Positions 21,510 to 38,168 of a stretch of DNA of 64,000 bases are shown in pieces. The DNA is taken from the NCBI RefSeq assembly GCF_900114035.1, contig NZ_FORP01000029.1, forward strand, positions 1-64,000, in the 5' to 3' direction. Under the pieces are notes generated by a model. That model was not told where the DNA came from and did not search any database. It saw only the letters and a program-made list of their open reading frames with translations. Both the position numbers and the translations under genes were made by a program. The stretch is from Amycolatopsis sacchari. GTDB taxonomy: Bacteria > Actinomycetota > Actinomycetes > Mycobacteriales > Pseudonocardiaceae. How positions within the stretch are numbered: position 1 is the stretch's first letter; each line of letters begins with the position of its first letter.

Positions 21510-21510
21510 G

Positions 21511-22611
21511 TCACGCCTCCTGTGCGGCGAGTTCGGCCGCCAGCACCGCGCGCTGGGCGGCGAGCCGGCGCGGCGGCCCGGCGTAGACGTGTTCGAACAA
21601 CTCCAGCGGCTCGACCGCGGGCTCGTCGTTCATGCCGGCCCGGAACCGGGCGGCGAACTCCTCGGCCGCGTCCTGGTCCGCCACCACGTCGGCGTCGCTG
21701 AGCACGCCGCGGTCACGCAGGTGCTTTTCCAGCCGTGTCACCGGATCGGCGGCACGCCACCGGTCCACCTCGGCCGGGTCGCGGTAGCGGGTGGCGTCGT
21801 CGGCGTTGGTGTGCGCGTCCATCCGGTAGGTGTGGGCCTCGACCAGGAACGGCCCCTCGCCACGCCGCGCGTGCGCCACCGCCTCGTCCAGCACGGCGAG
21901 CACCGCCACGAGGTCGTTGCCGTCGACCTGCTCGGACGGGATGCCGTAGCCGATCCCCTTGTACGCCAAGGACGGCGCCGCGGTCTGCTTCTCCAGCGGC
22001 ACCGAGATGGCGTACCGGTTGTTCTGCACGAAGAACACGACCGGAGCGCGGAAGACCGCGGCGAAGTTGAGCGCCTCGTGGAAGTCGCCTTCGCTGGTGC
22101 CGCCGTCACCGATGAGCGCCAGCACCACGTTACCCGCACGCCGCCGCCGGAAGGCGTCGGCCAGCCCCGCGGCGTGGAGGGTCTGGGTGGCCAGCGGGGT
22201 GCACTGCGGCGCGGTGTGGGTGGTGCGCGGGTCGTAGCCGCAGTGCCAGTCGCCCCGCAGCAGCGTCATGACCTCCACGACGTCCAGGCCGCGCGCGACC
22301 AGCGCCATCGAGTCGCGGTAGGTCGGGAACAGCCAGTCGTCGCCGCGCAACGCCAGCACCGCCCCGATCTGACAAGCCTCCTGCCCCGCCGCGGAGGGGT
22401 AGACCGCGAGCCTGCCCTGCCGGGTCAGCGCGGTCGCCTGGGTGTCGAACCGCCTGCCCAGCACCATCCGCCGGTAGCCGTCCCGCAGCCGTTCCGCCGA
22501 GGGTTCCCCGTAGCCCGCGGGAGCCGGGCACGCGGTGCCGTCCTCGGCCACGAAGCGCACCGGCCCGGCTGTCGGCAGCAGGTCTGCCGGTGCCCGTTCC
22601 CCACCCGTCAT
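21511..22611 (-). CDS. bkdA: 2-oxoacid dehydrogenase E1 component, alpha subunit
   Basis: This 366-residue protein carries the thiamine-diphosphate motif GDGGTSEGDFHEALNFAAVF ending in the FVQNN Asn pair. AAGQEACQIGAVLAL and the HTAPQCTPLATQTLHAAG region fit the branched-chain E1 alpha subgroup. It binds ThDP at the subunit interface and decarboxylates branched 2-oxoacids. It is first in a three-gene operon with E1 beta and E2. GGAGG lies about 10 bases before the ATG. The gene is divergent from an Lrp/AsnC regulator, the classic bkdR arrangement, although that regulator is frameshifted here. Substrate class is inferred from the split E1 and the neighbours. Confidence 0.87.
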   Translation of the reverse strand: MTGGERAPADLLPTAGPVRFVAEDGTACPAPAGYGEPSAERLRDGYRRMVLGRRFDTQATALTRQGRLAVYPSAAGQEACQIGAVLALRGDDWLFPTYRDSMALVARGLDVVEVMTLLRGDWHCGYDPRTTHTAPQCTPLATQTLHAAGLADAFRRRRAGNVVLALIGDGGTSEGDFHEALNFAAVFRAPVVFFVQNNRYAISVPLEKQTAAPSLAYKGIGYGIPSEQVDGNDLVAVLAVLDEAVAHARRGEGPFLVEAHTYRMDAHTNADDATRYRDPAEVDRWRAADPVTRLEKHLRDRGVLSDADVVADQDAAEEFAARFRAGMNDEPAVEPLELFEHVYAGPPRRLAAQRAVLAAELAAQEA

Positions 22612-22688
22612 CGCACATCGCCCTCCACCATCCGCTTGGCGCCGATGCTGGCCGATGGCAGACTACGTGTCCACAAAGAGCCGAAAAT

Positions 22689-22707
22689 CAGCGACAACTG
22701 GTCGCTG
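22689..22707. promoter_or_regulatory. inverted repeat in the bkd / Lrp divergent promoter region
   Basis: Perfect 7-base arms CAGCGAC and GTCGCTG are 5 bases apart. The site lies 22 bases before the Lrp-type start and about 80 before the E1 alpha start. Lrp/AsnC regulators usually bind 13-15-base dyads of this kind near their own promoter. Assignment is by position. Confidence 0.4.
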
Positions 22708-22728
22708 TGAAGGGGGCAGTGCGGCGAC

Positions 22729-23240
22729 ATGTCCACGACGGATCCTCCTTCCCCGCCACAGCATGGACAAACGGCGAAGCGCCTCGACGCGATCGACAGG
22801 GCCATGCTCGCGGAACTGGTCGCCGACGCCCGGATCTCGATCCGCGCGCTCGCCGACCGGCTCAGCATCTCCCGCGCCAACGCCTACTCACGCCTGGACC
22901 GGCTGACCCGGGACGGGGTGATCACCGGGTACGGGGCACGGCTGGACCCATACCGCGCCGGACTGGGCACGAGCGCCTACGTGTGGTCAGCGTCGAGCAG
23001 GCCGCGTGGCGGCAGATGCGCGCGGGCCTGCGCACCATCCCCTACGTCGAGCACATCGCGATGGTGGGCGGGGATTTCGACGTGCTGCTGCTGGTGCGCA
23101 CACCGGACAACGCCACCCTGCGCGATGTCGTGCTCGAACGCATCCAGGCGGTCGAAGGGGTGCGCTCGACGCGCACGTGGCTGATCTTCGAGGAAACGAC
23201 GGGCCCCGGCGCGGTGACTTTCGGCCTCACTCCGTCGTGA
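22729..23240 (+). pseudogene. bkdR: Lrp/AsnC-family regulator (BkdR-like), frameshifted
   Basis: The first frame encodes an Lrp HTH: AKRLDAIDRAMLAELVADAR, ISIRALADRLSISRANAYSR and LDRLTRDGVITGYGA. After GLGTSAYV near 22983 the frame breaks. The next base register continues the family as VVSVEQAAWRQMRAGLRTIP, then YVEHIAMVGGDFDVLLLVRT and NATLRDVVLERIQAVEG, the RAM ligand-binding domain, to a proper stop. One missing base explains it. The joined product would be about 170 residues, a normal length. It is divergent from the bkd operon, as BkdR usually is, and its end overlaps the convergent RpiR gene by 14 bases. A single-base loss could be a sequencing error. Confidence 0.75.
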
Positions 23241-24111
23241 CGTCGCCGAAGCCCGCCTCGATCGTGCGCATCCGCTCGTCGGCGGCGCCGCCGAGCCGGG
23301 CGTGGACGGCGAACACCAGCGCTTCGACCAGCGCGGTCGCGGCCACGAGGCTGTCGAACGATCCGGCGGCCTCGACTCGGGCGGACAACACGACGTCGGC
23401 GAAGTCCGCCGCGGGTGAGAGCCAGGGGTCGGTGACCAGGACGATCTTCGCGCCCCGCCCGGCGGCGGCCTTCGCCAGCGCGATCGTGTCCCTCTGGTAG
23501 CGCCGGAAGTCGAAGACCACGCAGACGTCGCGGCGGCCGAGATCGACGACGAAACCCGGGTCCTCGTGCGGGTTCACGGCGTGCACGGAGGTGCCCGGGC
23601 GCATGAGGCGCAGATGCAGGTCGAAGTAGGTGGCCAGCAGGTGCGAGAACCGGCCGCCGAACACCGTGATCCGCTTCGCCGGACCGCACAGCAGGGCGAC
23701 GGCCCGTTCGAACTCGTGCTCGGGCAGCACCGAGAAGGTGTGCTGGATGGCCTTGCTCGCGGTCTCCGCCACGACACTCGCGAGCTCCGACGTCGCCGAA
23801 TCGGCGGTGATCCGCGCCGGCAGCGTCAGCGGCGACGCGCGCCGGGCCTGCACCTCCTCACGCAGCGCGTCCTGGAAGTCCCGGTACTTGCCGAAACCGA
23901 GGCGCCCGATGAACCGCAGCACGGTGGGAGCGCTGATGCCGACCTTCTGTGCGAGGGAGTTGGTGGACTCCAGCCCGGCCGCCGGGTAGTTCGCGAGCAG
24001 CGCCCGGGACAACTTGAGCTCGGCGGGCGAGAGGGACTGCTGGATCCGCCGGATCCGGTCCGCGACGGTCGGGCTGTCTCCCACTCCACCGGTCCGCGGC
24101 GGTGTGCTCAC
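23227..24111 (-). CDS. RpiR/MurR-family regulator (HTH plus SIS domain)
   Basis: This 294-residue protein has an RpiR N-terminal HTH (about residues 15-90): SLSPAELKLSRALLANYPAA, then SLAQKVGISAPTVLRFIGRL. A SIS sugar-isomerase-fold domain follows around 120-270, with ITVFGGRFSHLLA and CVVFDFRRYQRDTIALAKAA. SIS domains usually sense phosphosugars, but RpiR proteins also control amino acid and other nitrogen pathways. GTG start with GTGA overlap to the upstream M20D gene, so it is the last gene of a ten-gene operon and likely regulates it. Its 3' end overlaps the convergent Lrp-type gene by 14 bases. Confidence 0.88.
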   Translation of the reverse strand: MSTPPRTGGVGDSPTVADRIRRIQQSLSPAELKLSRALLANYPAAGLESTNSLAQKVGISAPTVLRFIGRLGFGKYRDFQDALREEVQARRASPLTLPARITADSATSELASVVAETASKAIQHTFSVLPEHEFERAVALLCGPAKRITVFGGRFSHLLATYFDLHLRLMRPGTSVHAVNPHEDPGFVVDLGRRDVCVVFDFRRYQRDTIALAKAAAGRGAKIVLVTDPWLSPAADFADVVLSARVEAAGSFDSLVAATALVEALVFAVHARLGGAADERMRTIEAGFGDVTTE

Positions 24112-25331
24112 GGGCGACCTCCGGTCCCTTCGGCCGAGGCGTGCTTGCTGTCGGGAACCTTCTTAGCACCTCCGGTGACGACCTCGGCCGCCGCCAGGTA
24201 CCCGGCCAGCAGCGCGCCGGCCACGTGTCCGACGTACTCGTCTCCCGGCGCGTAGGTCGCGGAGTGCAGCCGCTGCCCCGCTCCCCCGGTGCCGACGAAC
24301 ATCATCAGCGAGGGCATGGCCTGGGAGAAGTAGGCGAAATCGTCCGAGCCCGCCGAGCGCAGCGTGTCGTCCACCTCGGCCCCCAGCCGCCGCAACAGCG
24401 GGGCGGCCGCCCGGGCGATGCCTGCGTCGTTCTCCAGCACCGGTTCCCCCTCGGTGACCTCGACCCTGCCCGTGCAGCCGTGCGCGCGCGAGACGAGGTC
24501 CACGGTCTCCGCGAGCCGTTCGAGGATCACCTCGCGCGCCGCGGGGTCCAGCGAGCGGACGGTGCCACGGGCGGTGGCCTCGTCCGGCACGACGTTCGGC
24601 GCGGAACCGGCGGCGAGCGTGGTCACGCTGAGCACCACGGGCGTCATCGGATCCGTGCCCCGGCTGACCATGCTCTGCAGTGCCACGACGACGCTGGCCA
24701 GTGCCACCACGGGATCCGCTGTCTGGTGGGGGTAGGCCGCGTGCCCGCCGCGGCCCGCCACCGTCACGGTGAACTCGTCGGAGGAGGCGTTGACCGGACC
24801 CGGGCTGCACGCCACCGTGCCGGTGGGCAGCAGCGGCTGGACGTGCGCGGCCACGGTCGCGCCCGCCTGCTGTTCGGCGAGTACGCCCGACTCACTGATC
24901 TCCAGCGCGCCCGACGGGTAGGTCTCCTCGCGGGGTTGCAGCACGACCACCAGCGGCGCCGGGCCGCCGACGGCCTCGACTGCTCGTGCCAGCGCCACCG
25001 TGGCGGCCAGGTGCACGTCGTGCCCGCACGCGTGCATCACGCCCGGGTGCTCCGACGCCCAGGGCAGTCCCGTCCCCTCGGTCACGCTCAGCGCGTCGAG
25101 CTCCGCCCGAACCGCCACGGCGGAACCGGTGCCGCCGATCCGCAGCACGGCTCCGGTGCCGGCCACCGGCTGTGCCGACGTGCCTGAGGGCAACGCGGCC
25201 AGCACGGTGTCGCGCGTGGCGGCCTCGTCCCCGGAAAGGCGGGGTTTCCGGTGCAGCTCGTGCCGCAGCTGGACGGCGGCGGGCAGCTCCTGCTCCACGC
25301 GGTGCCGAAGCCGGTCGAAACCGTCGGTCAC
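24108..25331 (-). CDS. M20D-type metallo-amidohydrolase
   Basis: This 407-residue enzyme is of the M20D branch (hippurate hydrolase, IAA-amino acid hydrolase, N-acyl amino acid deacylase). Metal ligands are visible in HACGHDVHLA (Cys and His), the REET Glu pair, AAHVQPLLP and a late LHSATYAPGDEYVGH His. The lid domain includes GRGGHAAYPHQTADPV with the usual dimerisation His. It should release amino acid or carboxylate from an N-acyl conjugate in the cytosol. The GTG start overlaps the amidohydrolase stop as GTGA. A long, low-complexity tail (VTGGAKKVPDSKHASAEG) follows the domain. Confidence 0.87.
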   Translation of the reverse strand: MTDGFDRLRHRVEQELPAAVQLRHELHRKPRLSGDEAATRDTVLAALPSGTSAQPVAGTGAVLRIGGTGSAVAVRAELDALSVTEGTGLPWASEHPGVMHACGHDVHLAATVALARAVEAVGGPAPLVVVLQPREETYPSGALEISESGVLAEQQAGATVAAHVQPLLPTGTVACSPGPVNASSDEFTVTVAGRGGHAAYPHQTADPVVALASVVVALQSMVSRGTDPMTPVVLSVTTLAAGSAPNVVPDEATARGTVRSLDPAAREVILERLAETVDLVSRAHGCTGRVEVTEGEPVLENDAGIARAAAPLLRRLGAEVDDTLRSAGSDDFAYFSQAMPSLMMFVGTGGAGQRLHSATYAPGDEYVGHVAGALLAGYLAAAEVVTGGAKKVPDSKHASAEGTGGRP

Positions 25332-26479
25332 CGGGCCGCGCCTTCCCCGCCGGGCAGCCGGTAGACGCGGCGTGCGTTGCCGCCGCCGATCATCCCCGCG
25401 ACCCGGATCGCGTCGGTGGCCGCCCAGTCCCCGTCGGCCACCCACGTGCCGAGCACCCGCGCCATGCCCCGGCGCCACAGCAGCGCACCGAGGTGGTGCA
25501 GTTCCGCGGGTCCCCACGCGTCGGAGGAGAACAGGATCTTGGCGAACGGGGCGAGCTCCAGCGATTCGGCGATCAGGGCGGCCGAGCGCACCCCGGTGTA
25601 GTTGATGCCGAGCCCGACATCGAAGTACACGTGCGGATACACCTGCGCCAGATAACCGGCGTGCCGGTGGTAGGGGTAGCAGTGCAGCAGCAGAACGTCC
25701 ACTCCGGACGGTTCGACCAGTTCGAGCCAGTCGGCCAGCAGCAACGGATCACACCGGTTCAGCCGCAGATCCGGGTCGCCGTAGCCGGTGTGCAGCTGCA
25801 GCGGCAGCCCGCGGTCGATGCCGGACCACAGCAGGAACCGCAGCAGCACCGGATCGTCGAGCCGCGAGGTCCCGGCTTCTTCGGTGGTACGCAACCACTT
25901 CCCCGCCGCCACCTCGACCTCCGAGCCGTCCGGCCGGTGAGGTTCGAAGTCGAAGCCGTACCGGTAGGCCACGATGCTCTTGAGCCCGACGGCATCCGCC
26001 GTGCGCTCGGCCAGCACCTCCGGATACCGCCGGACGAACTCGCGGGCGGAGACCTGCGAGGCGGCGAGCTCCTCGGCGACCGCCTCCAGCCGCACGATCT
26101 CGTCCACGCGCGCGTTCGCCGCCGCGGCCATCTCGGCGGGGCCTAGGATGTCGTCTCCGCGGTAGCCGGTCTCCAGCAGGTAGTGCCCGGTACCGGAGGC
26201 CGCCAGCAACCGCCGGTTCACCTCGGCGGTGCCCAGCTCCGTCCGGCGCCGCACGTAGTCCTCGGGCGAGGCGTGTGGCTCCAGCCCGAGCACCGGCGCG
26301 CACCACCGGAGGACGGCGAAGCCGATCTGGGAGTCGAACTGGGTCGTCCCCGCCGGAATGGGCCGGTCGGACTCGGTCAGCATCCGTTCCAGCGCGTCCC
26401 GGCCGACGTCGTCGCGGAGCGCTCCGTGCACGTGGTGGTCGACGAGGGGCAGCTCGCCGAGGAAGTCCTCAATAGACAT
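25328..26479 (-). CDS. FluG-like amidohydrolase (TIM-barrel, amidohydrolase-2 type)
   Basis: This 383-residue protein has the metal motif LVDHHVHGAL at its N-terminus. Later come LPLQLHTGYGD, LLLHCYPYHRHAGYLAQV and LFSSDAWGPAELHHLGALLW, strands of the amidohydrolase barrel with a late Asp. It matches the N-terminal half of fungal FluG and its bacterial homologues, where the barrel is fused or adjacent to a glutamine-synthetase-like ligase. Here the ligase gene lies directly upstream, overlapping by 11 bases. I chose the ATG in MSIEDFLGELP because it begins inside the end of the ligase gene; longer frames lack a ribosome site. Reaction unknown; hydrolysis of an amide made by the ligase, or its reverse step, is plausible. 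Confidence 0.85.
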   Translation of the reverse strand: MSIEDFLGELPLVDHHVHGALRDDVGRDALERMLTESDRPIPAGTTQFDSQIGFAVLRWCAPVLGLEPHASPEDYVRRRTELGTAEVNRRLLAASGTGHYLLETGYRGDDILGPAEMAAAANARVDEIVRLEAVAEELAASQVSAREFVRRYPEVLAERTADAVGLKSIVAYRYGFDFEPHRPDGSEVEVAAGKWLRTTEEAGTSRLDDPVLLRFLLWSGIDRGLPLQLHTGYGDPDLRLNRCDPLLLADWLELVEPSGVDVLLLHCYPYHRHAGYLAQVYPHVYFDVGLGINYTGVRSAALIAESLELAPFAKILFSSDAWGPAELHHLGALLWRRGMARVLGTWVADGDWAATDAIRVAGMIGGGNARRVYRLPGGEGAAR

Positions 26480-27746
26480 CGGCGATCTTCCGGATCCGTT
26501 GGGCCTCATCGAGACCGGCGACGGTGTCGAGCTCGTGCCGCTTCACCGCGAGGTAGCAGTCCAGCATTTCCCGGTCGAACCACGAGGCCGCCACCCGGTC
26601 CTCCCGCAACGACTCCAGTGCCCCGGACAGCGTGGCCGGCAGCCGGGGCACGTCCGCGAGATCCGCCTCCTCGGGCCACACCGCGGGATCGGGATAGACG
26701 TCCCCGCCGGTGAGCCCGGCGAGTCCCGCGCGCACCAGCACCGCGAGGGTGAGCCACGGGTTGGCCGTCGCGTCCGCGGCGCGGTACTCCAGGTTGAACT
26801 GCCGTGCGGGATCGCCGGGACGCGTGGGGCAGATCCGCACCAGTGCCTCCCGGTTGCGCTCCCCGAGGAAAGCGCCGCTGACACTCCAGTGGCCCGGCAC
26901 GAGCCGGAGGAACGAAACGGGGCTCGGCGCCGTCCACGCGGTCAGCGCCGCGGCATGCCGCAGCAGCCCGGCGGCGAACCGGGAACCCAGGTGCGACAGC
27001 CGCCCCGGCCTGCCCTCGTCGAAAAGGACCGGATCCCCCTTCGCGTCGACCAGGCTCAGGTGGACGTGCACCCCGCTGCCGGTGCCGCCGGGGCGCTGCA
27101 GCGGGGCGAACGAGGCACGCAGGCCACGCCGGATCGCGAGATCGCGCACGAGTTCGCGCAGCACGACCGCACGGTCCGCGGCACGCAGGGCGTCGCCGGG
27201 CGCGAGCGTGATCTCGAACTGCCGCTCGCCGTACTCGGGCAGCCACGTCTCCGGCTCCAGCCCGCATTCGGTCAGCGTCCGCAGCAGGTCCGCGCCGAAC
27301 GGTTCGGCATCGCGGTACCGGCGCAACGAGAACGGCGCGGACTCCGGCAGCCCGTCGAGCACGAACTCGTGCTCGAACGCGGCGATCACCTCGATCCCGG
27401 TCGCCTCGCGCAGGTCCGCCAGAGCGCGCTTGAGGAAGGTGCGGGGGCAGCAGTTCCACGGGGTGCCGTCGGGCAGGGTCTGGTCGGCCAGGTACAGCCG
27501 CAGGCCCGGCCGGTCCCCGTCGGCGGCCAGCTCGACCGCCGTCGCCTCGTCCGGCATCAGCCGGAGGTCACCGGTGGCGCCGAAGGGGCTTGCCGGGGCG
27601 ATCTCCTCGAACGCGGTCAGGCCCAGGTTCGCCGGCACCCAGCCCAGCCCGGAGTCCAGCACCGCGTCGTGGGCTTCGGCCGGAACGGCGCGGCCTCGCA
27701 CGTGCCCGGCCAGGTCGCAGGTCGCGACGAAGACGTCGGCGCTCAC
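26469..27746 (-). CDS. glutamine-synthetase-like ligase (gamma-glutamyl/FluG C-terminal type)
   Basis: This 425-residue protein has the GS fold. A short beta-grasp domain (VATCDLAGHVRGRAVPAEA) is followed by the catalytic half with VIAAFEHEFVLDG and LPEYGERQFEITLAPGDALR. GGTGSGVHVHLSL carries the metal-binding His, and FNLEYRAADATANPWLTLAV the substrate-binding Arg. Key residues for ATP and metal appear intact. It is not a housekeeping glutamine synthetase, being shorter and lacking the adenylylation loop motif. Relatives gamma-glutamylate amines (as in polyamine or isopropylamine catabolism) or act with FluG-type barrels. GTG start with GTGA overlap to the upstream M20 peptidase. Confidence 0.85.
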   Translation of the reverse strand: MSADVFVATCDLAGHVRGRAVPAEAHDAVLDSGLGWVPANLGLTAFEEIAPASPFGATGDLRLMPDEATAVELAADGDRPGLRLYLADQTLPDGTPWNCCPRTFLKRALADLREATGIEVIAAFEHEFVLDGLPESAPFSLRRYRDAEPFGADLLRTLTECGLEPETWLPEYGERQFEITLAPGDALRAADRAVVLRELVRDLAIRRGLRASFAPLQRPGGTGSGVHVHLSLVDAKGDPVLFDEGRPGRLSHLGSRFAAGLLRHAAALTAWTAPSPVSFLRLVPGHWSVSGAFLGERNREALVRICPTRPGDPARQFNLEYRAADATANPWLTLAVLVRAGLAGLTGGDVYPDPAVWPEEADLADVPRLPATLSGALESLREDRVAASWFDREMLDCYLAVKRHELDTVAGLDEAQRIRKIADVY

Positions 27747-29086
27747 GCCGGTTCCCCGTCCGCGACGCCGCAGAAGTCCATCGCGGTCAGCGCGTAGGTC
27801 TTCGCGGCGGTGATCAGCTGGTGGATGGGCACGTACTCGTCCTCCGCGTGGGCGGTGCGGCCGACGCCGGGACCGTAGACGAGACCGTCGACGCCCTTGG
27901 CGTCCAGCCAGGTCAGGTCGCACACGCCGAGGAAGCCCTCCTGCACCGGCGGGGTGGAGACCTCGAACCCGCCGACCGCGTCGCTGTGCGCGCCGATCAG
28001 GCTGGCGACCAGCTCGTGCCCCGAGGGCGTGGTGTAGGGCGGCCACAGCAGTTTCCACTCGAACACCGGGGGGTGCTGCCGCAGCCAGGAGTCGTTCGCG
28101 CAGGCCCGCCGGACCGTCTCCTCGACCTCCGCGATGACTTCTTCGTTGGTGCGGTCCGGGTGGTGGTAGATGCAGTACTCGGCGGTGAGGGTGTCGGCGA
28201 GGAAGAACGGCACCTCGATGCCCTCGGGGTTGGCGCGCAGCACACCGGGCAGGATGTTGAAGTAGCCGGGGCGGAACAGCGGGTGCCGGTCCCGCAGTGC
28301 CCATTCGTTCTCCAGTTGCCGCAGCGCGCTGTAGACCACCCAGAACTTGTCGACGGTGTTCACGCCGAGCGCCTCACCTTCGAGCGTGGGGTGCACGGTC
28401 AGCCCCCGCAGTCCCGAATGCGCCGCTTTTCCTTCCAGGCTCACGGAAAACCACAGCAGACCGGGGGTCACCGGGACCAGGTTGGGGGCCTCCTCGCCGA
28501 AGTTCGACGGTTCGCAGACGATCGCGGCGTCGGCGGTGTACCCCGCCTCCAGCGCGGCCGTCGTGCCGCACTCGTGGTCGCCGATTTCCTCCCCCACCAC
28601 GGCCTGGAGCACGAGGTCGCCGCGCAGCCGTACCCCGGCCTCCTTGAGCGCGAGCGCGGCGTAGGCGGCGGCCACGGTCCCGGCCTTGTCGTCGGTCGCG
28701 CCGCGGCCGAGCACGGCCTCGTCGGTGATCTGGCCGGAGAACGGCGTGGCGCTCCACTTGTGCTCCCGGCCGGGCGGGACCACGTCGACGTGACCGTTGA
28801 GCAGCAGGGAACGCCCGCCGCCGGTGCCGCGGATCCGCGCGCAGGCGTTGTCCCGCCCCTTCTCCACGGCCACCAGTTCGACGTCGGCACCCGCCCCGGC
28901 GTACAGATCCGCCATGAGCCGGGCGACCTCGCCTTCCGGGCCCACCACCCGGTCGTAGTCCTGGCCGGGATACTTCGGGTTCACGCTGGGAATCCGGATC
29001 GCCTCCGACAGCGAGGCTGCCAGGCGCCCGGCCAGGCGGTCGACGGCGTCGAGTACGGCGCGGCGGGAGGTCTCGTCAGGTCGCAT
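27743..29086 (-). CDS. M20 metallopeptidase (ArgE/DapE/ACY1-like)
   Basis: This 447-residue protein has the M20 zinc centre: LLLNGHVDVVPPG, then LGRGATDDKAGTVAAAYAAL with the bridging Asp. VVGEEIGDHECGT carries the catalytic Glu, AIVCEPSNF the next ligand and RTAHAEDEYVP the last His. Unlike the M20D protein further down the operon, it fits the ArgE/acetylornithine-deacetylase-like branch. It probably deacylates an N-acyl amino acid or cleaves a dipeptide. ATG start inside the end of the LivM gene (11-base overlap). Two different M20 enzymes in one operon suggest two amide bonds, or two related substrates. Confidence 0.87.
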   Translation of the reverse strand: MRPDETSRRAVLDAVDRLAGRLAASLSEAIRIPSVNPKYPGQDYDRVVGPEGEVARLMADLYAGAGADVELVAVEKGRDNACARIRGTGGGRSLLLNGHVDVVPPGREHKWSATPFSGQITDEAVLGRGATDDKAGTVAAAYAALALKEAGVRLRGDLVLQAVVGEEIGDHECGTTAALEAGYTADAAIVCEPSNFGEEAPNLVPVTPGLLWFSVSLEGKAAHSGLRGLTVHPTLEGEALGVNTVDKFWVVYSALRQLENEWALRDRHPLFRPGYFNILPGVLRANPEGIEVPFFLADTLTAEYCIYHHPDRTNEEVIAEVEETVRRACANDSWLRQHPPVFEWKLLWPPYTTPSGHELVASLIGAHSDAVGGFEVSTPPVQEGFLGVCDLTWLDAKGVDGLVYGPGVGRTAHAEDEYVPIHQLITAAKTYALTAMDFCGVADGEPA

Positions 29087-30050
29087 GGGCGCGCTTTCCC
29101 TTCTTGGTGAGACTGCGGGCGGCCGCGGTGAACCCGTCGTGCAGGAGCCCGGCGAGGCCGCGGGGGAGGAAGACCAGCACCAGCACCGTGCCCAGCCCGA
29201 TGACGACGGCGCTGTAGGCACCCAGCCCGGTGAGCTTTTCGTTGAGGAACGTCACGACGACACCGCCGAGGACCGGTCCCCAGGCGTAGCCGGTGCCGCC
29301 GAGGAAGACCATGCTCAGCCCGAGCGTGACGAAACCGAAGCTGAACAAGCTGTTGTCGGCCACGCGGAAGTACGACACGTAGAGCGCGCCGGCCGCGCCC
29401 GCGATCGCTCCACTGAGGACGAACACCAGCAGGTGCTGGCGGACGCGGCTGATCCCCCGGCTCACCGCCAGGTTCTCGTTGTCCCGCAGGGCGATGATGC
29501 TGCGGCCGAAGTCGCTGCGCAGCACCACCCCCAGCAGGATGAGCAGCAGCGCCACCGCCACGCCCAGCAGCCACAGGTAACCCAGCCCGTAGTAGCGGGC
29601 GAGCGAGAAGCCGCCGATGCTCAGCGACGGGACGCCGGTCAGCCCGACCGAACCGCCGGTGAGCCCCGGCAGCGCGAGCACCAGGTAGTAGCACAGCTGG
29701 ACGAAGATGAAGGTGACGAGCGCGATGTAGATCCCCCGCATCCGCACCACCGGCAGGTACGCCAGGCCCCCGGCCACTCCGCCCACCACGGCGGCCAGCA
29801 GCAGGCCCGGCCACGGCGCCCAGCCCCAGCTCACCGTCGCGACCGCCATCGTGTAGCCACCGGCACCGAAGAACCCGACGTGCGCGAAGTTGAAGATCCC
29901 GCCGAAGCCGAGCGTGAGGTTCCAGCTCGCGGCCAGCAGGCTGTAGATCAGGGCGGTGATCGCGAGCAGCCGCGCCGGTCCCCCGGTCACCACGAACGGC
30001 AGCAACCCGGCCACCACGAGCAGCCCAGCCCAGCCGACGTAACGCCTCAT
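29076..30050 (-). CDS. livM: branched-chain-type ABC transporter permease LivM
   Basis: This 324-residue membrane protein has the LivM pattern: ALIYSLLAASWNLTLGFGGI, FNFAHVGFFGAGGYT and VVRMRGIYIALVTFIFVQL, then the family DNENLAVSRGI loop and GTVLVLVFLPRGLAGLL near the end. It forms the membrane channel with LivH and is energised by LivG and LivF. The ATG overlaps the LivH stop (ATGA). Start chosen from that coupling; longer frames have no site. The C-terminal tail is basic (KKGKRAHAT). Confidence 0.88.
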   Translation of the reverse strand: MRRYVGWAGLLVVAGLLPFVVTGGPARLLAITALIYSLLAASWNLTLGFGGIFNFAHVGFFGAGGYTMAVATVSWGWAPWPGLLLAAVVGGVAGGLAYLPVVRMRGIYIALVTFIFVQLCYYLVLALPGLTGGSVGLTGVPSLSIGGFSLARYYGLGYLWLLGVAVALLLILLGVVLRSDFGRSIIALRDNENLAVSRGISRVRQHLLVFVLSGAIAGAAGALYVSYFRVADNSLFSFGFVTLGLSMVFLGGTGYAWGPVLGGVVVTFLNEKLTGLGAYSAVVIGLGTVLVLVFLPRGLAGLLHDGFTAAARSLTKKGKRAHAT

Positions 30051-30919
30051 GCGACCTTCCCCTTCACCAGGCCCTGCGGGCGCACGAGCATCACCACGAC
30101 CAGCACGAGGAACACCGCGACCGGGGACCACTGCAACCCCAGCCAGTAGGTGGTCGCCGCGTCGAGAAGGCCGATCACGAAGGCGCCCACGAGCGTGCCC
30201 CACAGCGTCGCCGAGCCGCCGAACACCAGCACCACGAACGCGGTCAGCAGCGGTTCGAACCCCTTGGCCGGCGTGATCGTCGAGTTCGTGCCGTACACCA
30301 GTGCTGCCGCGCAGGCCAGCACCGAGGCGATCCCGAACACCAGCGCGTACACGCGGGCCGGGCGCACTCCGACGAGCATCGCCATGTCCCGGTTCTGCGC
30401 CACGGCCCGCAGCGTCACGCCCCATTCGGTGCGCGCGAGCAGCACGATGAGCCCGATCACCAGCACCAGCGCGAGCCCGAGCGCGACGAGGGTCGTCCCG
30501 GCGACCGCGACCCTGCCGACCAGGAAACTGCCCTCGACCAGCGGGGCGATCTGCACGTTCTCCGGTCCCCATACCAGTTGCGCCCCACCGCCGACCGCGT
30601 TGGCGACGGCCAGCGTGGACACCATGACCAGCAAAGTGCCGTTGGCGCGCCCGGCGAACGGCCGCACCGCGACGAACTCCAGCGCGATGCCCACCAGCGC
30701 CAGCAGCGGGACGGCGGCCGCGAACGCCAGGATCACCGGCAGCCCGGCCCGTGCCGAAAGTGTCCAGATGAGATAGGCGCCGACCAGCAGCAACGCGCCG
30801 TGCGCGTAGTTGAAGATGCCCAGGGTCGACCAGATCAGCGAGAGCCCGCTGGCGAGCAGCGAGTACAGCGAACCCAGCACCACCGCGGAGACCACGATGG
30901 ACAGCAGTGCGTCACCCAT
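30047..30919 (-). CDS. livH: branched-chain-type ABC transporter permease LivH
   Basis: This 290-residue membrane protein shows LivH hallmarks: LASGLSLIWSTLGIFNYAHG, LLVGAYLIWTLSA, and the EWGVTLRAVAQNRDMAMLVG cytoplasmic loop that contacts the ATPases. I chose the second Met because GGAGGT lies 7 bases before it; a GTG further upstream lies within that ribosome site. The start overlaps the LivF stop. With LivM it forms the transmembrane part of a HAAT-family importer. Substrate may be an amino acid, amide, urea or related small polar molecule. Confidence 0.88.
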   Translation of the reverse strand: MGDALLSIVVSAVVLGSLYSLLASGLSLIWSTLGIFNYAHGALLLVGAYLIWTLSARAGLPVILAFAAAVPLLALVGIALEFVAVRPFAGRANGTLLVMVSTLAVANAVGGGAQLVWGPENVQIAPLVEGSFLVGRVAVAGTTLVALGLALVLVIGLIVLLARTEWGVTLRAVAQNRDMAMLVGVRPARVYALVFGIASVLACAAALVYGTNSTITPAKGFEPLLTAFVVLVFGGSATLWGTLVGAFVIGLLDAATTYWLGLQWSPVAVFLVLVVVMLVRPQGLVKGKVA

Positions 30920-31643
30920 CGGCCGCACCTCCGACGTACATGTCCATGACCTCCTCGTGGCTGGGTTTGACGTCCGCGGTGCCGCTGCTCGTGATGCGCC
31001 CCAGTTCGACCACGTGCCACCGGTCGGTGAGCGCGAACAGGAACTCCACGTCGCCGTCCGCGACGAGCAGGGACACCCCGGTGGTCCGGACCTCCCGCAA
31101 CGTCGCGAGGATTTCGTGCCGGACCTTGGGCGCGAGGCCGAGCGTGGGTTCGTCGAGCACGAGGAGCCGGGGCCGCGTCATCAGCCCCATCCCGATCGCG
31201 ACCATCTGCCGCTCGCCCCCGGACAGCGTGCCGACGAGCTGGTCCCGGCGCTGCTCCAGCTTGGGGAACAGCTCCTGCACGGTGGCCAGGGTTTTCGCGC
31301 GGTGCGGCTTCGCGTGCGGCAGCCGTCCGGCGAGCATCAGGTTCTCCCGCACCGTGAGCCTCGGGAACAGCGCGTCGCCCTGCGGGACGTGCATCATGCC
31401 CCGGCGGACGATGTCGTAGGCCTTCTCACCGGTGATGTCCTCGCCGTCGAACCGGACCGTGCCACCGCCGGTGCGGCCCAGCCCGGCGATCGCCCGCAGC
31501 GCGGTCGTCTTGCCGTGCCCGTTGGGACCCAGCAACGCCACGGCCTCACCGGGGGCGACGGAAACCGACAGGCCCCGCACCACCGGCAGACGGCCGTAAC
31601 CCGCGTGGAGGTCCGTCACGGCGAGCAACGCGTCCTCGCTCAC
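30912..31643 (-). CDS. livF: branched-chain-type ABC transporter ATPase LivF
   Basis: This 243-residue ATPase has the Walker A motif LLGPNGHGKTTALRA, signature LSGGERQMVAIGMGL and Walker B LLVLDEPTLGLAP, with the LivF-specific MHVPQGDALFPRLTVRENLM segment. Walker A carries His in place of the commoner Ala (GHGKT), a conservative oddity in this family. GTG start overlapping the LivG stop (GTGA). It hydrolyses ATP at the cytoplasmic face to drive import. Its C-terminal tail (TSSGTADVKPSHEEVMDMYV) is slightly longer than usual. Confidence 0.88.
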   Translation of the reverse strand: MSEDALLAVTDLHAGYGRLPVVRGLSVSVAPGEAVALLGPNGHGKTTALRAIAGLGRTGGGTVRFDGEDITGEKAYDIVRRGMMHVPQGDALFPRLTVRENLMLAGRLPHAKPHRAKTLATVQELFPKLEQRRDQLVGTLSGGERQMVAIGMGLMTRPRLLVLDEPTLGLAPKVRHEILATLREVRTTGVSLLVADGDVEFLFALTDRWHVVELGRITSSGTADVKPSHEEVMDMYVGGAADG

Positions 31644-32380
31644 GCGACTCCCTCCCCCAGGTACGCCTCCATCACGCGCGGATCGCTGAGCACCTCGCGG
31701 GGCGTGCCCTCGACGAGCACGCTGCCCGCCGTGAGCACGATCATCCGTCCGGCGAGCTCCCGCAGCAGGCTGAGCACGTGCTCGATGATGAGCAGCGTGA
31801 GACCGGCGGCGTTGAGCCCGCGCAGCAGCTCGGTCAGCTCGCGCTGGTCCTCGGTGTTGAGGCCGCCGGCGGGCTCGTCGAGCATGAGCAGCCGGGGCCG
31901 GGCGACGAGCGCACTGGCGATCATCAGCTTTTTCTTGACCAGCAAGGGAACGTCACCGGCCAGGTCGGCGGCGTAGCCGGAGATGCCCGCCGTCTCCAGC
32001 GCGCGCTCGGCCTCGGCGCGGCGGGCTCGGTGCCCGAAGATCCCGCCGCCACCCAGATACGCCGCGGCGACCAGTACGTTGTCCAGCACGGTGAGCGCCG
32101 GGAACAGCTGCTCGGACTGGAAGGTCCGCCGCAGCCCGGCCCGGCTGATCCGGCTCGCCGCAAGGCGGTCGACACGCCGCCCGTCGAACCACACCTCTCC
32201 GCGGCTGGGGCCGAACGGCACCCCGGAGACGAGGTTGAACAGGGTGCTCTTCCCGGCGCCGTTGGGGCCCGCGATCCCGAGGATCTCCCCCTCCCGCACC
32301 TGGAGGCTCACGTCGGCCACCGCGGGAAACCCGCCGAAGAACCGGCTCACCGCGCGGACGTCCAGCAGCGGTGCGGTCAC
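31640..32380 (-). CDS. livG: branched-chain-type ABC transporter ATPase LivG
   Basis: This 246-residue ATPase has Walker A IAGPNGAGKSTLFNLVSG, Walker B RLLMLDEPAGGLN and the LivG-type H-loop LLIIEHVLSLLREL. The signature motif is degenerate: where LSxGxxR is expected, the sequence reads PLLVKKKLMIASALVARP, with Val-Lys-Lys replacing the Ser-Gly core. LivF has a full signature, so the pair could still form one competent site. GTG start overlapping the binding-protein stop (GTGA). Confidence 0.87.
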   Translation of the reverse strand: MTAPLLDVRAVSRFFGGFPAVADVSLQVREGEILGIAGPNGAGKSTLFNLVSGVPFGPSRGEVWFDGRRVDRLAASRISRAGLRRTFQSEQLFPALTVLDNVLVAAAYLGGGGIFGHRARRAEAERALETAGISGYAADLAGDVPLLVKKKLMIASALVARPRLLMLDEPAGGLNTEDQRELTELLRGLNAAGLTLLIIEHVLSLLRELAGRMIVLTAGSVLVEGTPREVLSDPRVMEAYLGEGVA

Positions 32381-33651
32381 CGGATCCACGCCGGCTTCTG
32401 GAAGCTGCCCTCGGCGTAGTTCGCCGGGGTGATGGCGACGCGCTTGCCGCCCTGGATCTGGTAGTTGATGAACGGGACGCCGTCGTCGCCGGACACCGCG
32501 AGGTGGGTGGCGGGGTCGAACCGGATGCGGCCCAGCGTCGTGCCCTGGTCGTCGAGGGTGCCGATCGCGGGCCCGACCTTGTCCTTCTGCGCCGGATCGC
32601 CGACCTTGTCCGCGGCCTGTGCCCACATCCGCACCGCCTCGTAGACGATGAAGGCGTAGTTGGCGGGCGCGGACCCGTACTTCTGCGTGTACTTCGCGAT
32701 CATGTCCTGGGTGACCTGAGTCTTCGTCACGGGCGCGATGGGCAGGTTGAACAGCACCCCGTCGGCGCTCGCTCCGGCCAGCGTCACGAACTCCGGCACG
32801 CTCGGCGCGTACTGTTCGAACACCAGCGACTGAGTGGGGTTCTGCCGGAACTGGGTGAGGAACTTCGCGGCGTTGGCGGTCTGGTAGTCCAGGTTGAGCA
32901 CGAGCGCCGGGTCCAGCGCGTGGATCTTGTTGATCTGCGTGGTCCAGTCGTCCACCGCGCCGAAGGGCACCGTGTCCGGCCCGGTCACCTGCCAGCCCTT
33001 CGCGGTCAGGTTGGTCTTGAGCCCGCCGGCGATCTGGTTGGAGTAGGCGTTGTCGCTGGAGATCAGGTACGCCTTGCGGTTGCGCAGCGGGAAAGTGCCG
33101 TCGGTGTTCCACTGCTCGAGCTGGTTCGGCAGGTTGGTGCTGTAACCGTCGTACGACGGCGCGATGGACCAGATCCCCGGGTAGCGGTCCGGGGCCTTCG
33201 CCACGATTTCCTGGGTCTGCGCGCTGTTTCCGCCCAGCACGTAAGGGATCCCGGCCTGGGCGAAGGAGTCGATCTCGAAGTTGGTGGTGCTGGCGTAGCC
33301 GGTGAAGGCGGCCACCACGTTCGGGTCCGCGGTCAGGGTGGTCACCGCCGAGGACACCGCCGCCGACGTCTGGTCCTTGACGTCGATGGCCTGGAGCGTG
33401 AGCTTGCGCCCCTTGACTCCCCCGGCGGCGTTGAGCTGATCCACGGCCAGTTCGGCACCGTTCTGCATGGCCTTGCCATCCGCGGCGGCGGCGCCGGTCA
33501 GCGGCGCCAGCAGGCCGAGCGTGAGCTCGCCGTCGCCGGCGCCCTGTCCCCCGGAGCCGCCGGTGAGCGACGAGCAGGCGGACAGGGTCACGGCGAACGC
33601 GGCCATCGTCGCAACGGCGGCTCGTCGAACGGTGCGGCTGGCGAGAGTCAT
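32377..33651 (-). CDS. livK: ABC transporter substrate-binding lipoprotein, LivK type
   Basis: This 424-residue protein starts with a lipoprotein signal peptide (lipobox LSAC, Cys26) and a Gly-Ser linker. The type I binding fold follows: LTLGLLAPLTGAAAADGKAM, NGAELAVDQLNAAGGVKGRK, then AFTGYASTTNFEID. It captures ligand outside the membrane for LivHMGF. The ATG has GAGGAG upstream; a GTG two codons before is weaker. It is first in the operon, with a promoter candidate about 35 bases upstream. The pocket cannot be typed by eye; catabolic neighbours suggest an amide or conjugated amino acid instead of plain Leu/Ile/Val. Confidence 0.88.
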   Translation of the reverse strand: MTLASRTVRRAAVATMAAFAVTLSACSSLTGGSGGQGAGDGELTLGLLAPLTGAAAADGKAMQNGAELAVDQLNAAGGVKGRKLTLQAIDVKDQTSAAVSSAVTTLTADPNVVAAFTGYASTTNFEIDSFAQAGIPYVLGGNSAQTQEIVAKAPDRYPGIWSIAPSYDGYSTNLPNQLEQWNTDGTFPLRNRKAYLISSDNAYSNQIAGGLKTNLTAKGWQVTGPDTVPFGAVDDWTTQINKIHALDPALVLNLDYQTANAAKFLTQFRQNPTQSLVFEQYAPSVPEFVTLAGASADGVLFNLPIAPVTKTQVTQDMIAKYTQKYGSAPANYAFIVYEAVRMWAQAADKVGDPAQKDKVGPAIGTLDDQGTTLGRIRFDPATHLAVSGDDGVPFINYQIQGGKRVAITPANYAEGSFQKPAWIR

Positions 33652-33683
33652 ACCCACTCCTCACGGGGGACCGAGACCGCTCA

Positions 33684-33728
33684 AGTAACGTTTATTCCAT
33701 CGCCGATGTCAACACCAGCGAATGTTAC
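33684..33728 (-). promoter_or_regulatory. promoter and flanking repeat upstream of the liv/FluG-like operon
   Basis: On the minus strand TTGACA (33712-33707) stands 17 bases from GTTACT (33689-33684), a reasonable sigma-70-like promoter with a strong -35. GTAAC (33685-33689) and GTTAC (33724-33728) form inverted arms bracketing the -35, each followed inward by ATTC/GAAT at unequal spacing. This could be the operator of the RpiR regulator encoded at the operon end. The promoter is moderately supported; the regulator link is a guess. Confidence 0.45.
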
Positions 33729-34349
33729 AAGTGTGCGAAGCGGGCAGCGCCTGCCCGCAAGGCACGAACGGCGGAAGCCCGGTGAGCGCATCGGCTTCCG
33801 CGGTCGTCTTGTCCTGGCGCCGGTACCCGTCCGGAAGGGCGATGCACCGGCACCGCGGGCGGGGACGGGCCGGATCGAAGCGCTGGCGATCAGCCGCTCG
33901 ACAGATGACGTGCTCCGGCGGTTCCCCGTCACCCGACACGAACGGCAACGGCTTCTTCGGCCACCCGGAGCGCCCCGGCCCGCGCTCCCGAGCCAGGGAC
34001 CACGCTGAGCACCGGACGATTTCCATCCTTGCAACGTGCGCAAAGCAGCAGTACGCTTTTTCAAACGATGGCAAAACAGCCGGGCGCTGGTCCCGGAGCA
34101 GAAAGCCTCCCCTCCCGACGAGCGGCGCTGAACGTCTCGTGCATCGACGGCACCCGGACAGCATGCGGAGTACGCGGGCGTGCTCGGTAATGCTGTGCGG
34201 CAGCACGTGGCATCCGAGAACACGCGTCCAGCGCGGCACGGCAGGCGCGGCAGCCGGCAGTGCTCGGCAGGGCCGGAGCTCGAACGGTTCCAGCGGGACG
34301 GGTGAGCCGTCCAGGGCTGTGGTGCCGTCCTGTCCTAGGAGTGAGGTCA
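33729..34349. other. gene-free region upstream of the secreted Asp-box hydrolase
   Basis: About 620 bases without a convincing gene separate two divergent units. Open frames are long but lack motifs and codon character. The one clear signal is a LacI-type dyad in the middle, listed separately. The length suggests a long leader or regulatory region for the hydrolase, or a lost gene beyond recognition. Confidence 0.45.
34029..34043. promoter_or_regulatory. LacI-type operator TTGC-N7-GCAA upstream of the Asp-box hydrolase
   Basis: TTGCAACGTGCGCAA has perfect TTGC/GCAA arms around a central ACGT. The same arms and centre occur twice in the LacI/ABC divergent promoter 7.4 kb away. It lies about 300 bases before the hydrolase start, in a region slightly AT-enriched next to TTTTTCAAA. 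I infer control by the LacI regulator near 42 kb. Confidence 0.55.
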
Positions 34350-36044
34350 ATGGCGCCTGGTCCCCTGGTTATCCGTCACCACCACCCTGATCCCCGAGCG
34401 CGGCACCGCCGAGCGCGACGCGGTGCCGTGCTCGCCGCAGCCGTGCTGGCCGCCGCCGTCGCCGCCGCCGTTCCGGCGGCCGCGGCCACCGCGGCCACGA
34501 CCTCCGGCGGGGTCCTCTACCGTCCGAGCACCGCGAGCGGGTCCACAGAGGACGCGAGCTACCCCCGCGTGATCCGCCTCGAACACAACGGCAGTGCGAA
34601 CGGCACGTTGCTGGCCACGTTCTCCCATTCCGGCACGGGCGTGGCCAAGGCGAACTTCCCGATCTACCGCTCCACCGACAACGGCGTCACCTGGTCGTCC
34701 TCGCCCATCGGCACGGTCACCGACACCCAGCACGGCTGGGACCTCGACGGCCCGACGCTGTTCGAGCTGCCGCGTGCCGAGGGCTCGCTGCCCGCCGGCA
34801 CGCTGCTCGCCGCCGGCACAGCCTGGAACCACGGCGACTACACCCAGCAGGCGGTCGAGGTGTTCGTCTCCACCGACCAGGGCGCGCACTGGACGTACCG
34901 CAGCTCCTGCGCGGCCGAATCAGGCACCGCCAACACGATCGGCCACGGCATCTGGGAACCGGAGTTCACGGTCACCGACCACGGGCTCATCTGCTACTTC
35001 TCCGACGAACGCCCCTCGGCGAACAACTACGCCCAGGTCCTCGCACACGTCGTCTCCACCGACGGCGGGCTCACCTGGGGCGCCGAGGTCTACGACGTCG
35101 CCCTGCGCAACGGCGTCGACCGGCCCGGCATGGCGACGGTGGTCGGGCTGCCCAACGGGACCTATGCGATGACGTACGAGGACTGCAAAGCCGGCGCCGA
35201 CCCGGATCAGGCGTGCGACGTCTACTTCAAGACCTCGCCCGACGCCGAATCGTGGAACCCCGGCAGCCTCGGCACCCGGATCGAAACCAGCGACCACCGG
35301 TTCCTGCTCCACACCCCTTACCTGGCCTGGTCGTCCGCGGGTGGTCCGAACGGGACACTCATCGCGTCCGGACAACGGGTCGTCGCCGGGGCCGACGGCT
35401 CGTTGGCGATCCAGCCGGAGGACGGCCACGTGCTCTTCGTGAACCGCAACCTCGGGTCCGGTGCCTGGCAGGAGATCACGACCCCGGTCACCACGGCCCC
35501 GACCGGCGGCTACGACGCGGGGGAGACGGCCTGCGCCGGGTACAGTTCACCGCTGCTCGCCGCGTCCTCGGGCGGCACGTTCCTGATGCTCGCCGGCACC
35601 CACCTGTCGACGGGCAAGTGCGAGACGGACTTCGGTACGGCCACGCTGCCGAAGGCGCAGGGCCCGATCACGGGCCCTGGTGACACCGGCAAATGCGTCG
35701 ACGTCAACACGAACACCTCCGTCAACGGCAACGCGGTGCAGCTCTACACCTGCGGGGTGGCGACCGGGCAACAGTGGTCGCTGGAGACCGACGGGACGAT
35801 CCGCGCCTACGACAAGTGCCTCAACATCGTCGACGGCGGCACGGCCAATTCGTCCAAAGTAGAGCTGCGGGACTGCCTCGGCACGGCCGCGCAGCAGTGG
35901 CAGGCCCGCGCCGACGGTTCGCTCTACAACCCGCAGTCGGGCCGCTGCCTGGACGATCCCGCCGCCCAGACGGCGGACGGCACGCAGCTGCAGATCTACG
36001 ACTGCAACGGCATGTTCACCCAGGTGTGGCACGTCCCAGCCTGA
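34350..36044 (+). CDS. secreted Asp-box (sialidase-fold) glycoside hydrolase with ricin-type domain
   Basis: This 564-residue exported protein has a long Arg-rich signal peptide ending near AAATAATT. A beta-propeller follows with three Asp boxes (YRSTDNGVTW, VSTDQGAHW, VSTDGGLTW). Segments IWEPEFTVTDHGLICYFSDE and DRPGMATVVGLPNGTYAMTY belong to the catalytic part. About residues 440-564 form a ricin-type CBM13 with repeated Cys and QxW motifs (GQQWSL, AQQWQA, TQVWHV). Such folds occur in GH33 sialidases and GH93 arabinanases; I cannot decide between them. The ATG is preceded by AGGAGTGAGG. It is convergent with the GH2 gene and shares a terminator with it. Confidence 0.8.
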   Translation: MAPGPLVIRHHHPDPRARHRRARRGAVLAAAVLAAAVAAAVPAAAATAATTSGGVLYRPSTASGSTEDASYPRVIRLEHNGSANGTLLATFSHSGTGVAKANFPIYRSTDNGVTWSSSPIGTVTDTQHGWDLDGPTLFELPRAEGSLPAGTLLAAGTAWNHGDYTQQAVEVFVSTDQGAHWTYRSSCAAESGTANTIGHGIWEPEFTVTDHGLICYFSDERPSANNYAQVLAHVVSTDGGLTWGAEVYDVALRNGVDRPGMATVVGLPNGTYAMTYEDCKAGADPDQACDVYFKTSPDAESWNPGSLGTRIETSDHRFLLHTPYLAWSSAGGPNGTLIASGQRVVAGADGSLAIQPEDGHVLFVNRNLGSGAWQEITTPVTTAPTGGYDAGETACAGYSSPLLAASSGGTFLMLAGTHLSTGKCETDFGTATLPKAQGPITGPGDTGKCVDVNTNTSVNGNAVQLYTCGVATGQQWSLETDGTIRAYDKCLNIVDGGTANSSKVELRDCLGTAAQQWQARADGSLYNPQSGRCLDDPAAQTADGTQLQIYDCNGMFTQVWHVPA

Positions 36045-36060
36045 CCGGGCAGCGCGAAAA

Positions 36061-36092
36061 GGGGAGGTCGGTCCACCCGGACCGGCCTCCCC
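36061..36092. terminator. bidirectional terminator hairpin
   Basis: Fourteen-base arms GGGGAGGTCGGTCC and GGACCGGCCTCCCC, with one G-T wobble, enclose a 4-base loop. It sits between two convergent stops, 17 bases after the Asp-box hydrolase and 14 before the GH2 stop on the other strand, so it should serve both. Confidence 0.85.
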
Positions 36093-36105
36093 TCCCCCGT
36101 ACCGC

Positions 36106-38163: not shown

Positions 38164-38168
38164 GTCTT

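Follow-up and report, generated by a model that had tools for sequence, protein, structure and literature searches.

A ten-gene operon of Amycolatopsis sacchari that joins both halves of FluG to a Liv-type importer and two M20 hydrolases

Results

Organisation of the operon

We analysed a stretch of 64,000 nucleotides from Amycolatopsis sacchari (contig NZ_FORP01000029.1, positions 1 to 64,000), hereafter called the window, and focused on a minus-strand operon running from 33651 to 23227. With a probability of about one half, we read this operon as a single catabolic unit, controlled by an RpiR-family regulator, for an imported amide- or acyl-conjugated amine. Open reading frame (ORF) calls together with Pfam and NCBIfam searches gave ten genes in the order livK-G-F-H-M, M20A, a ligase resembling glutamine synthetase (GS), a FluG-N-type amidohydrolase, M20D and rpiR. 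All nine junctions overlap, by 4, 4, 8, 4, 11, 4, 11, 4 and 4 bases from livK to rpiR; these lengths depend on the start codons that we chose, and the longest LivH frame (start 30928) would give a larger overlap. The Pfam assignments of the operon proteins, among them M20_dimer, are all above the curated cut-offs. The genes are as follows:

32377..33651, minus strand: LivK-like substrate-binding protein, first gene, probable lipoprotein (Peripla_BP_6 PF13458, 136.6 bits)
31640..32380, minus strand: LivG-like ATPase (ABC_tran and BCA_ABC_TP_C; 4-base overlap with livK)
30912..31643, minus strand: LivF-like ATPase (ABC_tran by Pfam; overlap 4)
30047..30919, minus strand: LivH-like permease (BPD_transp_2; overlap 8)
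29076..30050, minus strand: LivM-like permease (BPD_transp_2; overlap 4)
27743..29086, minus strand: M20A, ArgE/DapE-type M20 metallohydrolase (Peptidase_M20, TIGR01910; overlap 11)
26469..27746, minus strand: GS-like, predicted gamma-glutamyl-amine ligase of PA5508 (4HPP) type (Gln-synt_C and Gln-synt_N_2; overlap 4)
25328..26479, minus strand: FluG-N / 2QPX-type binuclear amidohydrolase (Amidohydro_2 PF04909; overlap 11)
24108..25331, minus strand: M20D amidohydrolase (Peptidase_M20, TIGR01891; overlap 4)
23227..24111, minus strand: RpiR-family regulator with SIS domain, last gene (HTH_6 PF01418 and SIS PF01380; overlap 4)

A preliminary description of this DNA had proposed just such a ten-gene operon with every junction overlapping by 4-11 bases, and the ORF calls and family searches confirm it. 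Of the span it gave, 23227-33728, the lower limit stands, whereas the upper one lies about 70 bases too far out, the longest livK frame starting at 33657. It had also named a Liv-type importer, two M20 hydrolases and a split FluG system: all five importer subunits were recovered by Pfam, the two hydrolases belong to different subfamilies (M20A to TIGR01910, M20D to TIGR01891), and the FluG-N-type amidohydrolase and the FluG-C/PA5508-type ligase are indeed separate genes. The ten-gene grouping is not due to chance, because the same neighbours recur in other genomes (see below). A promoter scan returned zero promoter-like matches, and four terminator-like matches were not clearly above shuffled sequence (mean 2.8, standard deviation 2.1). 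Seven weak inverted-repeat pairs lie upstream of livK, and a tRNA scan of the window found none.

The ligase belongs to the PA5508 clade

Compared with PDB sequences, the ligase scored 344.6 bits against 4hpp (PA5508) and 124.6 bits against the next structure. A quick maximum-likelihood tree with 110 rows places it inside an 83-row clade (SH-aLRT, the Shimodaira–Hasegawa-like approximate likelihood ratio test, 100), together with a Pseudomonas defluvii protein that scores 674 bits against 4hpp. A second ligase clade of 18 rows stands apart (SH-aLRT 99) and consists of 17 rows from 16 family and order genomes plus a paralogue from the window's genome (L145); in those 17 rows the same amidohydrolase is encoded no more than about 5 kb from the ligase. 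We call this second clade GlnA3-like, a name taken from its neighbours rather than from a named GlnA3 sequence, and the window ligase lies outside it. This tree and that of the amidohydrolase leave out translations that contain stops or have short coverage.

For residue roles in the ligase and amidohydrolase sites we followed section 18 of PMC6478659; here and below, articles given by PMC number are cited from excerpts. The ligase keeps the metal, ATP and glutamate residues (E125, E127, E171, E178, H227, H229, R281, R299, R304 and E320), whereas V37 occupies the position of the ammonium Asp of GS (D53 in 4LNN) and W287 that of its catalytic Glu304. This marker Trp is found in 79/79 PA5508-type relatives and in 16/17 rows of the second clade, and the ammonium Asp is replaced by V, L or T in all 79 PA5508-type rows (the counts leave out the window, its copy L144, and L058 (=L085), L059 (=L063), L052 (=L187) and L190_5728 (=puuA)). 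Since the metal, ATP and glutamate residues are kept, the ammonium Asp and catalytic Glu are replaced and the protein groups with PA5508, the operon ligase is predicted to be a gamma-glutamyl-amine ligase of the PA5508 clade and not a GS, in agreement with the preliminary description, which had set it apart from ordinary GS.

That the gene is nevertheless an ordinary GS with its neighbours is scarcely credible. Its Gln-synt_C match is strong (238.4 bits), but, besides the two replaced residues, it scores 163.8 bits against the GlnA equivalog, for which the cut-off is 429.15, and the genome has five further Gln-synt_C genes, one of which (L142) keeps both Asp and Glu. Type I GS was ruled out by V37 and W287 together with that score. 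Close orthologues of the ligase are rare: 2/298 order genomes matched at 1e-90, one being the window's own; the ligase-bearing genome G018 was not among the matches and was probably outside this draw.

The amidohydrolase is shared between two ligase clades

The only PDB sequence matched by the amidohydrolase up to E 1 was 2qpx (4.1e-44). All seven site residues of 2QPX and FluG (H17, H19, K166, Y171, H227, H263 and D317 in 2QPX numbering) have equivalents in the window protein, and these (H16, H18, K167, Y172, H230, H266 and D320) are invariant in 32 aligned rows. A structural model (mean predicted local distance difference test score, pLDDT, 95.2) was nearest to 2qpx, with Z 44.1 and a root-mean-square deviation of 2.5 over 362 aligned residues, followed by 4i6v (amidohydrolase-2, Z 25.7), uronate isomerases and phosphotriesterases. 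Relatives were found in 80/150 family genomes (E up to 1e-20) and 49/200 order genomes (E up to 1e-50); these counts include the window's own genome. In one genome (G112; L038, around 7287-7887) a near full-length amidohydrolase match is accompanied by only short pieces of the ligase and of M20D, so that this copy may be decaying.

We then placed the ligase type, set by identity above or below 41%, on a 69-row amidohydrolase tree. The best tree shows 8 changes of the PA5508 label, compared with a mean of 18.8 for shuffled labels; on starred branches there are at least 4. The labels are thus clustered, yet partners have changed several times, and one amidohydrolase family therefore serves two ligase clades. 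This favours an action of the amidohydrolase on the gamma-glutamyl part that the products of both clades would share.

M20 hydrolases and importer

M20A is a borderline match to TIGR01910 (ArgE/DapE deacylase; 217.7 bits, cut-off 217.6), whereas M20D is well above the cut-off of TIGR01891 (252.1 bits, cut-off 153.75). H99, D132, E166/E167, E192 and H413 of M20A are invariant in 12 rows, and C102, H104, E135, E136, H163 and H356 of M20D in 19 rows; we take both sets to be metal-site residues. The M20A model was nearest to 3pfo (Z 41.6), tied with 7uoi (Z 40.7). The predicted structures of M20A and the amidohydrolase confirm their folds and do not tell the substrate.

As for the importer, all five subunits match the LivKHMGF Pfam families, and the best PDB sequence match of LivK, whose lipobox was judged by eye, is 3h5l. 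Four of the proteins score below the NCBIfam Liv cut-offs (LivG 180.2/362, LivF 178.9/441, LivH 82.5/379 and LivM 108.8/366 bits), so the importer is best described as Liv-like.

Gene neighbourhoods in related loci

Genome contigs were scanned with the ligase alignment, and the locus counts given here rest on 80 loci, chosen by ligase as the best of 194 confirmed; their genes were counted by tblastn, with matches under 55 bits dropped. RpiR genes occur in 54/80 loci, the amidohydrolase in 50 and M20D in 44, the latter two together in 41. FGase-like genes are present in 22 loci and isochorismatase-like genes in 23, with both in 21. The amidohydrolase was never found in the same locus as an FGase-like gene (0/80), nor M20D in the same locus as an isochorismatase-like gene (0/80), and this swap tracks the divide between Actinomycetota and Chloroflexota on one side and Pseudomonadota on the other, as an apparent non-orthologous replacement of hydrolase families between phyla. 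PF04199 cyclase-like genes are found in five further loci (L085, L092, L094, L106 and L114); each of these has the amidohydrolase but lacks M20D, and 67/80 loci thus hold two hydrolases (41 + 21 + 5). In L194, which is outside the 80, a cyclase-like gene and M20D occur together. The order is also conserved: in 48/80 loci the amidohydrolase follows the ligase on the same strand, with a gap of at most 60 bases in 45, and M20D lies downstream of the amidohydrolase in 39/80, within 80 bases in 29.

Relatives of M20A are present in 19/80 loci, where they adjoin LivM in 11, an NCS1 permease in 7 and neither in 1 (L107); in 18/19 loci an M20A relative thus stands beside an importer. Among eleven aligned relatives, identity to the window protein is 70% in L072, 62% in L112, 49% in L069 and 33-37% in the other eight. 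The preliminary description had suggested that the same gene order be sought elsewhere. The set does recur, since eight of the 80 loci (L072, L074, L075, L077, L080, L083, L088 and L112) combine the ligase, amidohydrolase, M20D and M20A with LivG/F/H/M, but their arrangements differ from the window's and none (0/8) forms one co-directional run as in the window. RpiR lies within the stretch in L072 and L112, and adjoins M20A in L178 (G415), apparently a stretch of the L074 contig.

The Microbacterium locus L112 has four Liv genes 64-71% identical to the window's, compared with 44-53% in the seven others, whereas its ligase is only 44% identical. Liv genes nearest to the window's beside so distant a ligase suggest that the import module may have moved by transfer. 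M20A searches independent of the ligase gave two non-own matches in 394 class genomes (G415 and G443) and two in 396 phylum genomes (G980 and G777). The module is near M20A in two of these four: in G415 (the L074 record) and in G980, which has ligase (34%), amidohydrolase (36%) and M20D (47%) relatives with NCS1.

These data bear on a different explanation, namely that two unrelated functions, a Liv-M20A module for uptake and hydrolysis and a FluG-type module, were joined by transfer into one transcript. The M20A relatives of G443 and G777 lack a ligase nearby, 61/80 ligase loci show no M20A within the stretch examined, the importer part forms a separate, divergent unit in other loci, and the Microbacterium importer genes resemble the window's more than the Microbacterium ligase does. 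On the other hand, M20A-Liv neighbours the ligase both in Actinomycetota and in three loci of Pseudomonadota (L111, L117 and L121), with different hydrolase partners, all ten window genes overlap, and L194 combines relatives of the ligase (34%), amidohydrolase (36%) and M20D (47%) with M20A and an NCS1 permease. We consider the joining of unrelated functions unlikely.

We give the same low weight to a polyamine route like that of glnA3-SCO6961 in Streptomyces coelicolor, in which the oxidase and aldehyde dehydrogenase would be encoded elsewhere and the amidohydrolase or M20D would cut gamma-glutamyl-GABA (GABA, gamma-aminobutyrate). A FluG-N-like amidohydrolase beside a ligase is polyamine-induced in that organism (PMC5403932, PMC6478659), a class III aminotransferase match occurs in 32/80 loci (22 of them at least 39% identical to the Mesorhizobium one), and an Orn/Lys/Arg decarboxylase-like match occurs in 8/80, four of them strong. 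Against this, the window ligase groups with PA5508, apart from the other amidohydrolase-linked clade; PA5508 favours bulky amines and is the only paralogue not induced by polyamines (PMC6478659); and the operon includes a Liv-type importer and no oxidase.

Several loci carry additional genes. In six (L066, L070, L071, L076, L082 and L113) a flavin mononucleotide (FMN)-protein gene and an MftG/choline-dehydrogenase-like gene of the glucose-methanol-choline (GMC) oxidoreductase family lie divergently, just upstream of ligase-amidohydrolase-M20D; the L071 FMN protein scores 539.8 bits, above the cut-off of 470.85 for the pre-mycofactocin synthase MftD, hinting at mycofactocin-linked oxidation in this variant. 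Two different GS-like ligases, 34-36% and 48-49% identical to the window's, occur in tandem in L092, L106, L114 and L120 (Chloroflexota and Actinomycetota); in three of these four loci a permease gene and a PF04199 cyclase-like gene separate the two. The importer unit of the Streptosporangiaceae loci (L074, L075, L077, L080, L083 and L088) includes two short-chain dehydrogenases/reductases, a gamma-glutamyltranspeptidase and a PF01522 gene of polysaccharide-deacetylase/allantoinase-PuuE-like type. In Microbacteriaceae (L102, L103, L108 and L112) the Orn/Lys/Arg decarboxylase-like gene lies close to the cluster and could point to diamines; weaker matches are in L085, L092, L118 and L138.

Genes flanking the operon

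Directly downstream of the operon (19298-23240) lie genes for E1-alpha, E1-beta and E2 components of a dehydrogenase and, divergent from them, one for an Lrp/AsnC-type regulator (22707-23240, plus strand) that is convergent with rpiR. Genes for branched-chain keto acid dehydrogenase or for pyruvate dehydrogenase are commonly laid out in this way, and the regulator probably belongs with the dehydrogenase set. Upstream, at 34260-38940, are a divergent gene for a protein with a ricin-type lectin domain, whose BNR matches fall below their cut-offs, and a gene for a glycoside hydrolase of family 2.

Discussion

A proposed route for conjugated amines

The anatomy of the operon and the conservation of its gene sets and catalytic residues are features of the sequence itself, whereas the reactions proposed here follow from the protein families. 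The Liv-type ABC importer would take up a conjugated compound, which M20A may hydrolyse at an amide bond. The PA5508-type ligase would then couple the freed amine, which is probably bulky or aromatic rather than ammonia, to the gamma-carboxylate of glutamate at the expense of ATP. The tagged compound might next be processed by enzymes from outside the operon or by M20D. The FluG-N-type amidohydrolase would cut the gamma-glutamyl amide and return glutamate; we infer this because the amidohydrolase accompanies two ligase clades and Pseudomonadota use in its place an FGase-family protein, from a family for which cleavage of gamma-glutamylglycine has been proposed. Finally, M20D would remove a second amide, a task that an isochorismatase-like hydrolase may perform in Pseudomonadota.

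A number of observations weigh against a single pathway of this kind. Pfam identified no oxidase, dehydrogenase or aldehyde dehydrogenase among the ten genes; without an oxidising enzyme, adding the tag and removing it straight away would be a waste of ATP, unless M20D or an outside enzyme acts in between, and the purpose of the tagging is left unexplained within the operon. The guide to the amine is itself uneven: one account has PA5508 favouring bulky amines (see above), another calls its substrates aromatic, yet gives spermidine and putrescine as examples (PMC11335346), and the two agree poorly. The activity of the 2QPX protein was not known in 2019 (PMC6478659). Since the mutual exclusion of hydrolases coincides with a phylum divide, it may reflect one historical swap.

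The hydrolase pair is also missing from 13/80 loci: M20D is alone in L061, L089 and L105, the amidohydrolase in L068, L093, L095 and L115, the isochorismatase-like gene in L125 and L135 and the FGase-like gene in L128, and none of the five hydrolases was seen in L073, L090 and L120. As the contigs of L090, L105, L115, L120 and L128 are at most 6 kb and that of L068 ends about 0.1 kb past the amidohydrolase, only part of these are true absences. Even so, Pseudonocardia acaciae (L061), whose ligase is the relative of highest identity (72%), has M20D and no amidohydrolase in 21 kb, Micromonospora L089 likewise has M20D without the amidohydrolase, and L073 lacks all five. Identity to the window's M20A is only 33-49% in the aligned relatives that are NCS1-linked or proteobacterial. 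Lastly, no module was seen from -19 to +10 kb of M20A in G443, and in G777 the ligase, the amidohydrolase and M20D are all missing from the roughly 9 kb on each side of M20A.

A more general scheme would do without an oxidase altogether. In it, a PA5508-type ligase adds a glutamate handle and two hydrolases of interchangeable families act on the product, one (amidohydrolase or FGase-like) on the gamma-glutamyl amide and the other (M20D, isochorismatase-like or PF04199 cyclase-like) on another amide, with an import-linked M20A supplying the amine in some loci. Taken as a whole this scheme is tentative, and we hold it to be somewhat doubtful. If true, it would represent a new, modular way of exploiting bulky amines in conjugated form, and the fusion of ligase and hydrolase in fungal FluG could be explained by it. 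The swap of hydrolase families between phyla further predicts that the amidohydrolase and the FGase-like protein perform the same reaction. As to the operon itself, it unites both FluG halves with an importer and two more amidases in an actinomycete, so that ligand binding by LivK and induction through RpiR could reveal the substrate.

Comparison with known systems

The preliminary description had suggested that the operon might be a new system, unless homologous clusters were already tied to a known substrate. This novelty falls for the core, because its homologues are already linked to a substrate class, the polyamines: SCO6961 and SCO6962 of S. coelicolor are reported to be similar to the two FluG halves (PMC6478659, citing Rexer et al. 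2006), and three genes of that organism, glnA3 (SCO6962) and, downstream of it, SCO6961 (amidohydrolase 2 family) and SCO6960, are likely co-transcribed and are polyamine-inducible, SCO6961 being proposed as the hydrolase of a gamma-glutamyl pathway (PMC5403932). The closeness of such module genes in bacteria has also been noted (PMC6478659). For the larger set, the papers listed from an open-licence collection included no report of the exact gene set and substrate, and nothing relevant on the combination of FGase, isochorismatase, GS and RpiR; titles and abstract openings gave no substrate for Pseudomonas PA5506-PA5510. A PF05013 protein, SCO1615, has been proposed as a gamma-glutamylglycine hydrolase in an ethanolamine route (PMC9397018). 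The ligase-amidohydrolase pair is thus already known, and the operon is a variant of it that adds a second hydrolase and an import module and whose ligase is probably of a different clade.

In S. coelicolor, as in the window, a GS-like ligase gene is followed by an amidohydrolase-2 gene, and the two are co-induced (PMC5403932). The window ligase probably belongs to another clade, and a Liv importer, M20A and RpiR are not mentioned for the glnA3 operon in the excerpt of PMC5403932.

FluG of Aspergillus nidulans is a fusion of the same two catalytic modules with the same residue sets, and can be replaced by PA5508 and the 2QPX protein together; its substrate and the reaction of its amidohydrolase half were unresolved in the 2019 FluG paper (PMC6478659). 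The window has two overlapping genes, ligase then amidohydrolase, where FluG is one protein with the amidohydrolase first. The fungal protein also has a developmental role, being required for conidiation (PMC6478659), whereas the operon is probably catabolic. Together with that replacement by two proteins, this role lends something to the idea that the operon detoxifies or signals rather than feeds the cell, but the ABC importer and two more hydrolases point to nutrient uptake and make it very improbable.

The PA5508-type cluster of Pseudomonas was compared through P. defluvii (L136). It shares with the window a ligase of the same clade and a nearby RpiR gene, and differs in that an isochorismatase-like hydrolase, an FGase-like protein and a permease replace the window's amidohydrolase, M20D, M20A and Liv genes. 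The Puu pathway of Escherichia coli likewise gamma-glutamylates its amine before breakdown and has a regulator and transporter in the cluster. Its ligase, however, is 28% identical to the window's, and by Pfam the ten genes contain no counterparts of the PuuB oxidase, PuuC dehydrogenase or PuuD hydrolase, which rules out a Puu-type pathway within the operon.

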